A program made the position numbers and the translations under genes. Under the pieces are notes generated by a model, which did no database searches, had not been told where the DNA came from, and saw only the letters and a list, made by a program, of their open reading frames with translations. From Acidobacteria bacterium RIFCSPLOWO2_12_FULL_66_21 (GTDB lineage Bacteria; Acidobacteriota; Vicinamibacteria; Vicinamibacterales; 2-12-FULL-66-21): a stretch of DNA of 38,361 nucleotides. Below, piece by piece: positions 19,298 to 24,655 of this stretch (the stretch's first letter is position 1; each line of letters opens with the position of its first letter). The stretch spans positions 190,096-228,456 of the forward strand of contig MELC01000086.1 of assembly GCA_001767455.1 (NCBI GenBank), in the 5' to 3' direction.

Positions 19298-21463
19298 TCA
19301 GTAGACCCCCATCGGTCCCCAGTCGTCGGCGCGCCTGAGATCTTCGTGGCGCGCGCCGAGTCTCAGCACCGCCATCGAGCGTGGCTGCAGCTCGTAGCGA
19401 TCGCCGGCGCCGAGGCAGCGGGCGGGCCGCCAGGGGTCGGCCGTGTCGAGCAGCGTCTCCCAGCGCTCGTGCGGAGAGGTGGCCGGCAGCACGAACGGGG
19501 CCGCTTTGTCACCCGCGTTCAGCATCAGCAGCAGCGTGTCGTCGAGGATGCGCTCGCCGCGTTCGCCGACTTCATCGATCGCGTCGCCGTTCAGCCGCAC
19601 GCCGAGGGTCCGCACGTCCGGCGAGTTCCACGTGTCGTCGGTCATCTCGCGGCCCGACGGGTCGAGCCACGCGATGTCGAGCACGTCGGCGCCGCGAATG
19701 CCGCGCCCCTGGAAGAACCTGCGGCGCCGCAGCACCGGATGATCCTTGCGCAGCCTGATGAGACGGCGGGTGAACTCCAGGAACTCGCGCTCGACGGGCG
19801 TGAGATCCCAGTGGGTCCAGCTGATCTCGCCGTCCTGCGAGTACGCGTTGTTGTTGCCGCGCTGCGTGCGCCCGAGCTCGTCGCCGCCACTGATCATCGG
19901 GACGCCGACCGACAGCATCAACGTCGCCAGCACGTTGCGCCGCTGCCGCTCGCGGAGCTCGGCGATGCGCAGGTCGCTCGTCGGCCCCTCCACGCCGCAG
20001 TTCCAGCTGGAGTTGTGGTTCTCGCCGTCGACGTTGCCCTCGAGGTTCGCCTCGTTGTGCTTCTCGTTGTAGCTGACGAGATCCGCCAGCGTGAAACCGT
20101 CGTGCGCGGTGATGAAGTTGATGCTGGCGTACGGCCGCCGCCCGCTCTGTTCGTAGAGATCGCTGCTGCCCGACAATCGCGTGGCCAGCTCGGAGACGCC
20201 GCCGCCGTAGCCGCCCCAGAACCGCCGCACCGTATCGCGGTACTTGCCGTTCCACTCGGTCCATTTCGCCGGGAAGTTGCCGACCTGGTAGCCGCCTTCG
20301 CCGAGGTCCCACGGCTCGGCGATCAGCTTCACCTGGGAGAGCACCGGGTCCTGGTGGATGATGTCAAAGAACGCGCCGAGCTTGTCCACGGCATGCAACT
20401 CACGAGCCAGCGCGCTCGCCAGATCGAACCGGAACCCGTCGACGTGCATCTCGAGCACCCAGTAGCGCAGGCTGTCCATGATCAGCTGCAGCACGCGCGG
20501 GCTTCGCATGTTCAGCGTGTTGCCGCAGCCGGTGAAGTCCTGGTAGAAGCGCGAGTCGTTCGGCTTCAGCCGGTAGTACGACGCGTTGTCGATCCCGCGC
20601 AGCGACAGCGTCGGCCCCAGGTGATTGCCCTCCGCGGTGTGGTTGTAGACGACGTCGAGGATGACCTCGAGGCCGGCGGCATGCAGCGCGCGGACCATCA
20701 TCTTGAATTCGCGCACCGCGTCCATGCACGACGCCGACGCCGCGTAGCGGATGTCCGGGGCGAAGTACGACAGGGTGTTGTAGCCCCAGTAATTCGTGAG
20801 TCCCTTCTGCACGAGGTGCCACTCGTCCGCATGGTGGTGTACCGGCATCAGCTCGACGGCCGTGACGCCGAGCGACGTCAGATGGCGCACCGCCGGCTCC
20901 GACGCGAGCCCGAGATACGTGCCGCGCAGCGACTCCGCGACGTGCGGGTTCAGGGCGGTGAACCCCTTCACGTGCAGCTCGTAGATCAGCGTCTCGTGCC
21001 AGGGCGTGCGGAGCGGGCGATCGTCGCCCCATGTGAACGACGTGTCGACCACCGCCGCGAGCGGCGCGTACGGCGCGCTGTCCCGATCGTCGAACGTCGT
21101 GTCGTCCTCGCCGAACCGGAACCCGAACAGCGCCTCGTCCCAGCGCATCGCCCGCCCGACCACCTTCGCGTACGGATCCATGACGGGCTTGTTCGGGTTG
21201 AACCGGTGCCCCTGATGGGGCAGGTAAGGCCCGTGGACGCGGTACGCGTAGAGCTGGCCGGGGTGCACGTCAGGGAGATATCCGTGCCACACCATGTCGG
21301 TGTGTTCGGGCAGACGGATTGTGACGGCTTCGACCTCGGCATCCGGTGAATCGAAGAGGCACAACTCGACTCGTGTGGCGTGTTCGGAGAAGATCGCGAA
21401 GTTGACGCCGACCCCGTCCCACGTCGCGCCGAGCGGCGAAGGGGCACCGGGCCATACGCGCAT
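19298..21463 (-). CDS. glgX: Glycogen debranching enzyme (GlgX/TreX, GH13)
   Basis: About 721 residues from the ATG at 21463, chosen because family members open with [23 protein letters not shown] at 21496 would add 11 basic residues. The enzyme cleaves alpha-1,6 branches of glycogen. An N-terminal CBM48 domain is followed by the barrel: [40 protein letters not shown] with the nucleophile, [19 protein letters not shown] with the acid/base Glu, [17 protein letters not shown], and [10 protein letters not shown] typical of GlgX/TreX. It is the first gene of the cluster, supplying linear maltooligosaccharides for TreY/TreZ. 148 bases separate it from glgE. Confidence 0.95.
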
Positions 21464-21514
21464 GTTCCGTCGAGGCACAGAAGGCTTACGTACCACGTAG
21501 AGGCATGACCATGC

Positions 21515-21597
21515 AAGGTGCTGAGGGGTGCTGACGGGTGCTGACGGGCTTGCCGCGCCGAAGCGCCGGAGGCGCGAAGGCGGGTGCTGAAGGGTGC
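21515..21597. repeat. Armed palindromic element, intergenic copy (42-bp core at 21546-21587)
   Basis: Three copies of a 10-base unit (GGGTGCTGAC type) lead into a 42-base GC-rich core at 21546-21587, followed by GGGTGCTGAAGGGTGCT. The core folds as CGCC-GAA-GCGCC-GGA-GGCGC-GAA-GGCG, that is, two nested stems with a GAA/GAA internal loop. The same 42 bases occur, inverted and without a mismatch, inside queA at 23677-23718. It fills most of the gap between the divergent glgX and DUF4112 genes. Confidence 0.9.
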
Positions 21598-21609
21598 TCT
21601 AATCACTGG

Positions 21610-22065
21610 ATGCGTGACGATCGTGCCCTGAACGGGCTCCGCCGGTGGGCCGTTTTGCTCGACAGCGTGTTCCGCGTGCCGGGGACGCGGTGGCGATTCG
21701 GCCTCGACCCGATCGTCGGACTGGTCCCGGGGCTCGGCGATCTGGCAACGCCGCTCTTCTCGATCCTCCTCCTGCTGCAGGCCGTCCGCCTGCGGATCCC
21801 ACGCGTCGTGCAAGTGCGAATGCTGCTCAACGCGGCGATCGACTTCGGGCTGGGCGCCCTGCCGGTGATTGGCGATCTGTTCGACTTCGCGTGGAAGTCG
21901 AACGCGATGAACCTGGCGCTGCTGGAGCGTCACGCGATGCCCGGGTCGAGGCCGACGCAGGGTGACTGGATCTTTGTCCTCCTGATCGTCACCGTGCTCG
22001 CCGTCTTGGCGTTGATCCCCCTCGTGCTGTGGGTGTGGCTGCTCTCGAACGTGAGGCTAATCTGA
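21610..22065 (+). CDS. DUF4112 family membrane protein
   Basis: 151 residues from the ATG at 21610. The longer frame starting at 21538 is made of repeat-element sequence ([12 protein letters not shown]) and is rejected. The family signature is present: LDSVFRVPGTRWRFGLDPIVGLVPGLGD, then ALPVIGDLFDFAWKSNAMNLALLERH. Predicted helices lie at about residues 45-65 and 120-145; the 'DPI-GL-PG-GD' region is amphipathic and may dip into the membrane. DUF4112 proteins have no established function. It converges on the AI-2E family transporter gene. Confidence 0.85.
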   Translation: MRDDRALNGLRRWAVLLDSVFRVPGTRWRFGLDPIVGLVPGLGDLATPLFSILLLLQAVRLRIPRVVQVRMLLNAAIDFGLGALPVIGDLFDFAWKSNAMNLALLERHAMPGSRPTQGDWIFVLLIVTVLAVLALIPLVLWVWLLSNVRLI

Positions 22066-22124
22066 CAGCTTCCAGTCGCCAGCTTCCAGCTTCCAGCTGG
22101 GAGCTGGGAACTGGGAATCGGAAA
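22066..22124. repeat. Heptamer inverted-arm element between convergent genes
   Basis: The entire 59-base gap between the DUF4112 stop and the transporter stop consists of CAGCTTC heptamers followed directly by CTGGGAG/CTGGGAA heptamers. The junction CCAGCTGG is the symmetry centre. As RNA it could fold into a hairpin from either strand, so it could act as a bidirectional terminator, although it has no T-run. Confidence 0.85.
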
Positions 22125-23315: not shown

Positions 23316-23345
23316 CTGTAAAAGAACTCACCTGCGGGACCGCCG

Positions 23346-23368
23346 GTAGCGCAGCCCTTTAGGGCTGC
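23346..23368. repeat. VAQPFRA palindrome, copy 2
   Basis: Identical over 23 bases to the copy at 17118-17140 (GTAGC + GCAGCCCTTTAGGGCTGC). It lies between the divergent AI-2E transporter and queA genes, about 36 bases before the queA start, so it must sit in or beside both promoters or leaders. Confidence 0.85.
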
Positions 23369-23403
23369 TATACAGTTGCTGACGAATTTGCACTCTTCGT
23401 GCC

Positions 23404-24540
23404 GTGCTGGTTTCAGACTTCGACTTCGACCTTCCGGATGAGCTGATCGCGCAGCAGGCGGCGCCGCGGGGCGCCTCGCGCCTGCTCGTCCTGGACCGGG
23501 CCGGCGGCGCGATACGCCACGATCGCATCGCGAACCTGCCCGGACACCTCCGCGCCGGCGATCTCCTCGTCGTCAACAACACCCGCGTCTTTGCCGCCCG
23601 GCTCCTGGGCCATCGCGTCCCGAGCGGCGGCGCTGTCGAGTGCCTTCTCCTTTCGCACCCGGCACCCGGCACCTCGGCACCCGCCTTCGCGCCTCCGGCG
23701 CTTCGGCGCGGCAAGCCCTTCAGCACTCTTCAGCACCCCTCGGCACCCGTCAGCGCCCATGAGGTGTGGGATGCCCTGATGCATCCGGGCCAGAAACTGA
23801 AGCCGGGTGCAGTCGTGCGATTCGAAGGGGACGCGGGCGTGCTGATGGCCGAAGTGCTCGAGCGGCGGTTCCACGGACGGCGCACGATTCGGCTGTGGGC
23901 CGAGCCGGGGGGCGACGTCGATGCCCTCGTCGACGCGCTGGGACACGTCCCGCTGCCACCCTATATCAAGCGCGGCGACACGCTGGCCGATCGCGACCGC
24001 TACCAGACGGTGTATGCCGAAGTGCGCGGATCGGTGGCCGCGCCGACCGCGGGGCTGCACTTCACGCCGGAGATCCTCGCCGATCTCGATCGCCGCGGGG
24101 TCGAGCGGGTTGCGATCACGCTTCACGTGGGGTACGGGACGTTCAAGCCGGTGCGCGTCGAGCGAGTCGAAGAGCACACGGTCGATCCCGAGCACTATGA
24201 GATCGGCACCGGCGAGGCGGCCGCCGTCAACGGCGCGCTCGATCGCGGCCGGCGCGTCATCGCCGTGGGCACGACGACGACGCGCGCGCTGGAGGATGCG
24301 GTGATGCGCGGCCGCGGCCGGGTCGAGCCGGGCCCGGGCGTGGCGTCGCTGTTCGTCTATCCGGGGTTCGAGTTCAAGGTGATCGGCGGCCTGCTCACCA
24401 ATTTCCATCTGCCGAAGTCATCGCTGCTGATGCTGGTTGCGGCATTCGGGGGCCGGGAGAATGTACTTGCCGCGTATCGCGAGGCCGTACGGGAGCGATA
24501 CCGCTTCTATTCGTATGGCGACGCTATGTTGATTCTCTGA
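23404..24540 (+). CDS. queA: S-adenosylmethionine:tRNA ribosyltransferase-isomerase, with an element-derived insert
   Basis: 378 residues from a GTG; the family start 'VSDFDFDLPDELIAQ' follows at once. QueA moves the ribosyl group of SAM onto 7-aminomethyl-7-deazaguanine in tRNA to form epoxyqueuosine. The landmarks are present: GDLLVVNNTRVFAARL, HVPLPPYIKRGD, YQTVYAEVRGSVAAPTAGLHFT, VTLHVGYGTF-like ITLHVGYGTFKPVR, AVGTTTTRALE and TNFHLPKSSLLMLV...YRFYSYGDAMLIL. Family length is about 340-350. The excess comes from about 36 residues at positions 84-119, between VECLLL and EVWDALMHPGQKLKPG, encoded by a dispersed repeat. The insert is rich in Pro, Ala and Ser and sits where other QueA proteins have a short loop, so activity may survive. 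Confidence 0.94.
   Translation: MLVSDFDFDLPDELIAQQAAPRGASRLLVLDRAGGAIRHDRIANLPGHLRAGDLLVVNNTRVFAARLLGHRVPSGGAVECLLLSHPAPGTSAPAFAPPALRRGKPFSTLQHPSAPVSAHEVWDALMHPGQKLKPGAVVRFEGDAGVLMAEVLERRFHGRRTIRLWAEPGGDVDALVDALGHVPLPPYIKRGDTLADRDRYQTVYAEVRGSVAAPTAGLHFTPEILADLDRRGVERVAITLHVGYGTFKPVRVERVEEHTVDPEHYEIGTGEAAAVNGALDRGRRVIAVGTTTTRALEDAVMRGRGRVEPGPGVASLFVYPGFEFKVIGGLLTNFHLPKSSLLMLVAAFGGRENVLAAYREAVRERYRFYSYGDAMLIL
23653..23760. repeat. Armed palindromic element inside queA (42-bp core at 23677-23718)
   Basis: Within the queA frame, CACCCGG/CACCTCGG heptamers lead into a 42-base core that is the exact reverse complement of 21546-21587. Units of CAGCACTCTT, CAGCACCCCT and CGGCACCCGT follow. Length and phase keep the queA frame open, adding about 36 residues. 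In reverse orientation the core reads [12 protein letters not shown], as in the intergenic copy. Confidence 0.92.
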
Positions 24541-24655
24541 AATTGCGAATTGTGAGTTGTGAATTGACTGGCAACAGGCTGAAGCCATCCGGATGGACGA
24601 TGCCAGCGCGTGGCATAATTCACCAACTCACCAATTCACCAATTCACGAATTGTT
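24541..24655. repeat. Octamer inverted-arm element (copy A)
   Basis: It starts at the base after the queA stop and ends at the ADOP stop. The left arm is degenerate GAATTG(T/C)G units, the centre GGCTGAAGCCATCCGGATGG (a small palindrome), and the right arm repeats TCACCAAT/TCACGAAT with period 8. The two arms are complementary. The centre is similar to that of the copy at 30724-30872. Confidence 0.88.

Follow-up and report, generated by a model that had tools for sequence, protein, structure and literature searches.

The queA locus and its inserted loop

The window analysed here, a stretch of DNA of 38,361 nucleotides, carries a queA gene with an in-frame insert and, 2.1 kb away from the repeat copy within it, a second copy of the same repeat in inverted orientation. 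The features on which the analysis builds are listed below by window position.

19298-21496, minus strand: gene with CBM48 and alpha-amylase domains, neighbour of the intergenic copy
21517-21590, plus strand: intergenic copy, made of GGTGCTGA-type 10-bp units and a hairpin module (repeat search, alignment of copies)
21550-21584, plus strand: putative 35-nt hairpin module of the intergenic copy (alignment of module copies)
21610-22065, plus strand: DUF4112 gene, neighbour of the intergenic copy
23404-24540, plus strand: queA, encoding tRNA preQ1(34) S-adenosylmethionine ribosyltransferase-isomerase, 378 aa with insert (NF001140, TIGR00113, PF02547)
23653-23760, plus strand: in-frame loop, probably repeat-derived, residues 84-119 (alignments of relatives, structure model)
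23674-23747, minus strand: 74-nt repeat copy in queA (93% to 21517-21590; G-rich strand antisense to queA)
23680-23714, minus strand: putative 35-nt hairpin module in the queA insert, YTGCCNCGCCGWAGC...GCGRAGGCGGG (within the exact 42-nt match; signature count)

The reading frame of queA is unbroken, and its product was recognised as QueA by family profiles (NF001140, E 3e-125; TIGR00113; PF02547, E 5.3e-122) and shows the conserved core of this family, keeping all 101 of the positions that are conserved in at least 95% of 139 relatives. A structure search returned four matches at E ≤ 0.001, which are chains of the QueA entries 1yy3 and 1vky (two chains) and of 1wdi, with low TM-scores by query length (0.50-0.55). 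A previous reading of this DNA from its sequence alone had claimed that about 36 residues were added in frame at a place where other QueA proteins have a short loop. The frame and the short loop were borne out, the latter comprising six residues in 76 of 140 QueAs of the order; the size was not, since the window's loop of 37 residues exceeds the common one by about 31. The insert itself was absent from the queA genes of relatives, and no conservation among close orthologues appeared. At the insert, we found neither a target-site duplication nor an exact empty site, and the ancestral loop codons are unrecognisable beside it.

The sequence-only reading had also suggested modelling residues 84-119. 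In an AlphaFold2 model based on 65 sequences of the order (mean pLDDT 90.5), residues 93-114 have a pLDDT below 50 and lie between the strands 77-84 and 119-127, and the insert is predicted to form the disordered tip that links these two beta strands. Its assumption that the enzyme tolerates the insert is consistent with the open frame, the complete set of conserved positions and the predicted floppy loop, for a product and an activity that are both predicted.

The two repeat copies are related as had been claimed: bases 21546-21587 are the exact reverse complement of 23677-23718 (42 of 42), with zero further exact bases on either side. Beyond this core, a repeat search of the window found 21517-21590 and 23674-23747 to form an inverted pair that is 93% complementary across 74 nt, and tandem GGTGCTGA-type units border both copies, so the flanked element and not the core alone is indeed common to both. 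The intergenic copy is placed between the starts of the amylase-domain gene and the DUF4112 gene. Seven copies of a 39-nt core (≤3 mismatches) were present in the 6.48 Mb genome compared with none for a reversed-pattern control, and the exact unit pair GGTGCTGANGGGTGCTGA occurred 169 times (97 + 72), again with a control count of 0. Because of these two differences, the match between the copies is not a chance effect, and the core is not confined to the window. The earlier proposal of a mobile element thus holds as far as dispersal is concerned; transposition does not follow from these counts.

Other repeats lie nearby. A short palindrome, CGCCGGTAGCGCAGCCCTTTAGGGCTGC, is found just upstream of queA (23341-23369), and AT-rich tandem units of another repeat kind (AATTGCGAATTGTGAGTTGTGAATTG and AATTCACC-like units) directly behind it (24540-24648). 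Between convergent genes, a run of CAGCTTCCAG-like units faces its own inverse (GGGAGCTGGGAACTGGGAA; 22066-22122).

A composite repeat and its places in the genome

The element had initially been taken for a single palindrome. It is instead a composite of two modules: 10-bp units, GGTGCTGARG, which run head-to-tail with a period of 10 and up to 20 units per array, and an embedded hairpin module, in which YTGCCNCGCCGWAGC is followed by a short variable stem-loop and then by GCGRAGGCGGG. Among 27 distinct module copies from this genome and three relatives, 23 measure 30-36 nt and four 44-57 nt. A 15-nt signature of the module was counted 52 times in the genome (reversed control: 2), and modules are nested in the arrays, alternating with units three times in one locus (L070) and twice in another (L076). 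Head-to-tail units recur at many loci, as seen from the 169 unit pairs and from 34 arrays of at least three units.

Compared with 200 shuffles that preserve dinucleotides, the hairpin of the queA copy was no stronger (inverted-repeat p 0.995, fold z +0.44), and we therefore rejected the view that a palindrome is what distinguishes this copy; its direct repeat, on the other hand, was equalled in strength by 0 of 200 shuffles. The description of the core as a putative hairpin module rests on its other copies, in which covariation is weak (1 of 9 pairs). An Rfam scan gave no match at the insert; its one match in the window is a tRNA gene (RF00005, 30629-30702, plus strand). Two further candidates were dropped. 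A palindrome with a terminal GTAG tag, as in GTAG REPs, was not found: GTAG is interior (GCCGTAGC) and occurs in 9 of the 27 distinct module copies, the other 18, including the queA copy, having GAAG (the search pattern admitted only these two). As for a G-quadruplex as the reason for the element, a G4 motif exists on the G-rich strand of 19 of the 34 arrays and in neither window copy.

Array contexts were studied in 43 fetched loci, drawn from 40 of 208 scored candidates and from the first 100 of 169 unit-pair places, with genes called by a simple codon-usage script rather than a standard gene finder. The 34 arrays of these loci tend to lie close to gene 3' ends (≤50 bp in 26 of the 33 with such a neighbour, median 6 bp). 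Since spacers are short, arrays are often near 5' ends as well (≤50 bp in 14/26, median 47 bp). Their orientation relative to the gene ending nearby showed no bias (13 vs 12), and three of the 34 lie inside open reading frames, one of which is weak.

Within the order, the GGTGCTGANGGGTGCTGA pair was present in 3 of 162 genomes, namely the source genome (G000; 169), G121 (119) and G020 (1). G121 belongs to another family than the source genome and has the same array layout (L262-L273), with the module in some of its arrays. Horizontal spread, loss or parallel growth may explain this sharing along with the near-absence of the pair elsewhere in the order. The module signature is more widespread (100/162 genomes), in many cases at counts not above those of the control.

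Besides queA, a GluQRS gene of the source genome (L097:792-1781, contig C60) contains 11 ten-bp units in frame, adding about 39 residues directly before the KLSKS motif, and a weakly DUF1302-like gene (L090:874-2133, contig C41) a short C-rich array in frame (APFSTSEHSSAPFST). All four in-gene arrays found, i.e. those of queA, GluQRS, the DUF1302-like gene and the weak open reading frame (L069), are C-rich on the coding strand. In the G-rich direction, each frame of a pure array is closed by a TGA within 30 nt; in the C-rich direction, no frame is. The latter orientation, TTCAGCACCC, is open in all three frames and reads LQHPSAPFST. This would explain why inside genes only C-rich, frame-keeping copies persist. 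A slip by one unit in the GluQRS array would break the frame. In relatives, repeats also occupy another loop of GluQRS, which follows the CxC motif: RIQDQIQD repeats in G057 (L261) and GTGGGGTCAGACCCC, a GGGGTCAGACCCC palindrome, in G002 (L348). QueA and GluQRS, both of the queuosine pathway, make up two of the three well-supported in-gene arrays found in this genome. It is quite doubtful, however, whether repeats preferentially land in frame in queuosine enzymes and have become a part of how these proteins vary; if they did, the frame shift caused by a one-unit slip in GluQRS would render glutamyl-queuosine a phase-variable trait.

Recurrence at the QueA loop across the order

Among the 162 genomes of the order (probably Vicinamibacterales), 152 gave a QueA match and 142 could be judged from lengths, 31 of which have at least 10 extra residues over all QueA loops. 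For the loop counts, G127 and G129 were left out, leaving 140 QueAs. At the loop that carries the window's insert, 76 of these have no extra residue, 49 at least 5, 27 at least 10 and 14 at least 20, with a maximum of 64, while at any other QueA loop at most 2 sequences have 10 or more. With an insert-free QueA as query, the matches in 14 genomes of the order were interrupted at query residues 83-91. The 14 carriers of at least 20 extra residues each keep 98-101 of the 101 conserved positions. As a control, 125 full-length MurA matches from a profile search of the same 162 genomes, tallied by hand with partial ones left out, included none with at least 10 extra residues (largest +8); as the sole control protein, MurA provides a thin comparison.

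Loops with at least 10 extra residues are spread over several groups of the order (4/9 in f1, the source family; 9/24 in f6; 3/12 in f11; 9/39 in f2; 2/7 in f4) and absent from others (f9, 0/27; f12, 0/6; f5, 0/5; f7, 0/4; f15, 0/4). On a FastTree tree computed without the loop, they require at least 19 changes, and those with at least 20 extra residues at least 10; these counts are approximate because 40 of 137 inner branches were drawn open. Long versions of the loop also turn up in a few bacteria beyond the order: at least 10 extra residues were seen in 3 of 79 loci of a wider QueA search, which are the best 80 of a longer list less one, include some members of the order and are biased against inserts.

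The sequences that fill the loop are of different kinds. Where the window's loop consists of GGTGCTGA units and the hairpin module, those of G029 and G053 are near-perfect palindromes around GGGGTCAGACCCC, those of G012, G109 and G099 contain CAACTCCC units facing their own inverse, those of G027 and G037 GGCTCAGGGCTCA runs, and that of G080 a AAACGACCTCWGAGGTCGTTT palindrome, twice. Internal direct or inverted repeats (p ≤ 0.01) were present in 17 of 27 long loops compared with 7 of 81 control windows of the same genes (Fisher p 4.8e-8; three windows per gene, which are hence not independent; 200 shuffles for inserts and 100 for controls). Direct repeats are the commonest internal signal (16/27), and ten of the 27 loops have no internal repeat significant at 0.01.

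Some of the filling families abound elsewhere in their genomes. GGGGTCAGACCCC has 57 copies in G053 and 16 in G029, queA ones counted, and is present in 64/162 genomes; CAACTCCCAACTCC, present in 21/162, has 29 copies in G012, 7 in G109 (two in queA) and 6 in G099 (one in queA). Long loops were found in 12 of 36 genomes with at least five copies of three tested families and in 15 of 104 others (Fisher p 0.025, kinship uncorrected), so that repeat richness is linked to long loops only modestly. In group f11, three of 12 loops are long despite near-zero counts of the three tested families.

Taken together, the same loop has apparently been filled independently, and in frame, many times. The recurrent filling of one enzyme loop by several repeat families across an order seems to be new: in a literature search limited to open-licence papers, no report on repeats in the QueA loop was found in the titles and abstract starts of the matches listed, nor did searches on repeats of Acidobacteria, Vicinamibacter and Luteitalea turn up such a report in the titles and abstract starts of theirs.

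Origin of the insert and relation to known repeats

We consider it probable (roughly 0.7) that a dispersed composite repeat gave rise to the insert, at a permissive beta-hairpin tip of QueA which repeat-rich lineages refill with the families at hand. The composite repeat would have entered, or have been copied into, the tip. The tip may tolerate very different peptides and would for this reason be filled repeatedly, in repeat-rich lineages, by whichever short repeats are available. Arrays might arise when a short seed is copied and then expands by slippage, while purifying selection would purge copies that break the frame or bear stops. Copying from elsewhere in combination with slippage would account for both the shared modules and the growth with period 10.

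An alternative that we regard as possible, yet rather unlikely, is that a REP-type HUH tyrosine transposase (RAYT or TIRYT) placed the insert in trans. The source genome has three Y1_Tnp matches (best E 3e-7), and 104/162 genomes of the order have at least one. In the relative G004, a Y1_Tnp gene (locus L350, 575-1276, minus strand) lies amid GGGGTCAGACCCC repeats, which stand on both sides of it (517, 1211 and 1240). GGGGTCAGACCCC fits the GGGGWSAS motif that PMC3733652 reports for TIRYT repeats, along with an Acidobacteria group of these transposases, and has copies inside the queA genes of G029 and G053 and the GluQRS gene of G002. L350 is likely a TIRYT unit of a repeat family that also enters QueA and GluQRS genes, and given the position of the G004 gene between repeats and the motif fit, a Y1 transposase is a plausible mover of the GGGGTCAGACCCC family. 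For the window's own family, a very limited look beside copies of the GGTGCTGA array and module found no transposase, and tandem decamers are unlike the REP layout.

It is less probable still that the loops grew in place, through replication slippage on a native GGCACC- or CAACTC-like codon run and with no outside DNA. The units are indeed tandem with a period of 10, short runs occupy the same loop in relatives (e.g. G104, G103, G116 and G117), and direct repeats prevail among internal signals (16/27). Yet the queA copy matches a site 2.1 kb away over 74 nt (93%), a stretch that takes in the 35-nt module, this hairpin module is common to many loci, and the loops of G029, G053 and G080 form near-perfect palindromes rather than expanding runs. 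Very improbable, too, is an assembly error or a decaying pseudogene: the source assembly is a draft in 91 contigs, but the frame is intact, 101/101 conserved positions are kept, and comparable inserts exist in many separately assembled genomes, including the single-contig G027. A conserved functional part of QueA, as the open frame and intact protein core might suggest, is largely refuted and scarcely credible, given that 76/140 QueAs have no extra residue there, that the carriers' sequences are unrelated and that the segment is predicted to be disordered.

If a permissive tip refilled by dispersed repeats is the correct reading, the order offers about two dozen natural insertions, drawn from different families, in one loop of one enzyme, where in-frame repeat insertions have so far been known one by one. 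These could be used to ask how much a protein tolerates, at what rate repeats enter genes and whether such peptides gain a use. They also serve as a warning that loop peptides of Acidobacteria proteins can be translated intergenic repeats.

In Cyanobacteria, hairpin-forming small dispersed repeats are nested in heptamer arrays. The window's elements resemble them in layout, in that a hairpin-forming short repeat lies within short tandem arrays. The TAACTGA heptamer arrays that PMC4679880 describes in Beggiatoaceae, some Cyanobacteria and Bacteroidetes are likewise short, tandem and patchily distributed between distant lineages, with 169 sets in one genome, most of them intergenic; their usual place is upstream of a start codon. 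The unit pair of the present arrays is similarly patchy (3/162 genomes), but the unit is 10 bp instead of 7, arrays lie close to gene 3' ends rather than upstream of starts, and no hairpin module is mentioned in that description of TAACTGA arrays.

Palindromic repeats of the REP type provide a second comparison. According to PMC3733652, GTAG/CGTC REPs often lie close to gene 3' ends, in-gene dimers or groups of them encode 20-30 residues and larger clusters 43-82, and the recB genes of Xanthomonas campestris and X. oryzae carry different REPs at roughly one position. The QueA loop resembles this last case, as far as it is described there, in that different palindromic repeats occur at about the same gene position in different species. 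Where the recB case involves two species, the QueA loop requires at least 19 changes over a whole order and has taken up several families, tandem arrays included. The window's module further departs from GTAG REPs in having GTAG inside and not at its end. TIRYT-associated repeats (GGGGWSAS, described in that source as including Acidobacteria) are matched by the GGGGTCAGACCCC sequence of relatives' QueA loops, which flanks the Y1_Tnp gene of G004, whereas the window's own insert belongs to another family.

The sequence-only reading had been reminded of Rickettsia palindromic elements (RPEs). Intragenic repeats were described in R. conorii (PMC3733652), and RPEs, according to PMC10969869, are short dispersed repeats that are kept in frame in unrelated genes, whose proteins are apparently tolerant; an RPE is about 150 bp long, and the peptide it encodes is conserved. 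In-frame insertion of a dispersed repeat into protein-coding genes is what we see in queA, GluQRS and the DUF1302-like gene. In place of a palindromic unit of about 150 bp with a conserved peptide, however, there is a 74-nt copy composed of 10-bp units and a 35-nt module, and one site of one gene is hit by many families, so the composite structure and the recurrence at the QueA site go beyond the comparison and set the element apart from RPEs by description. The queA insert works like a Rickettsia palindromic element, though we do not class it as one.
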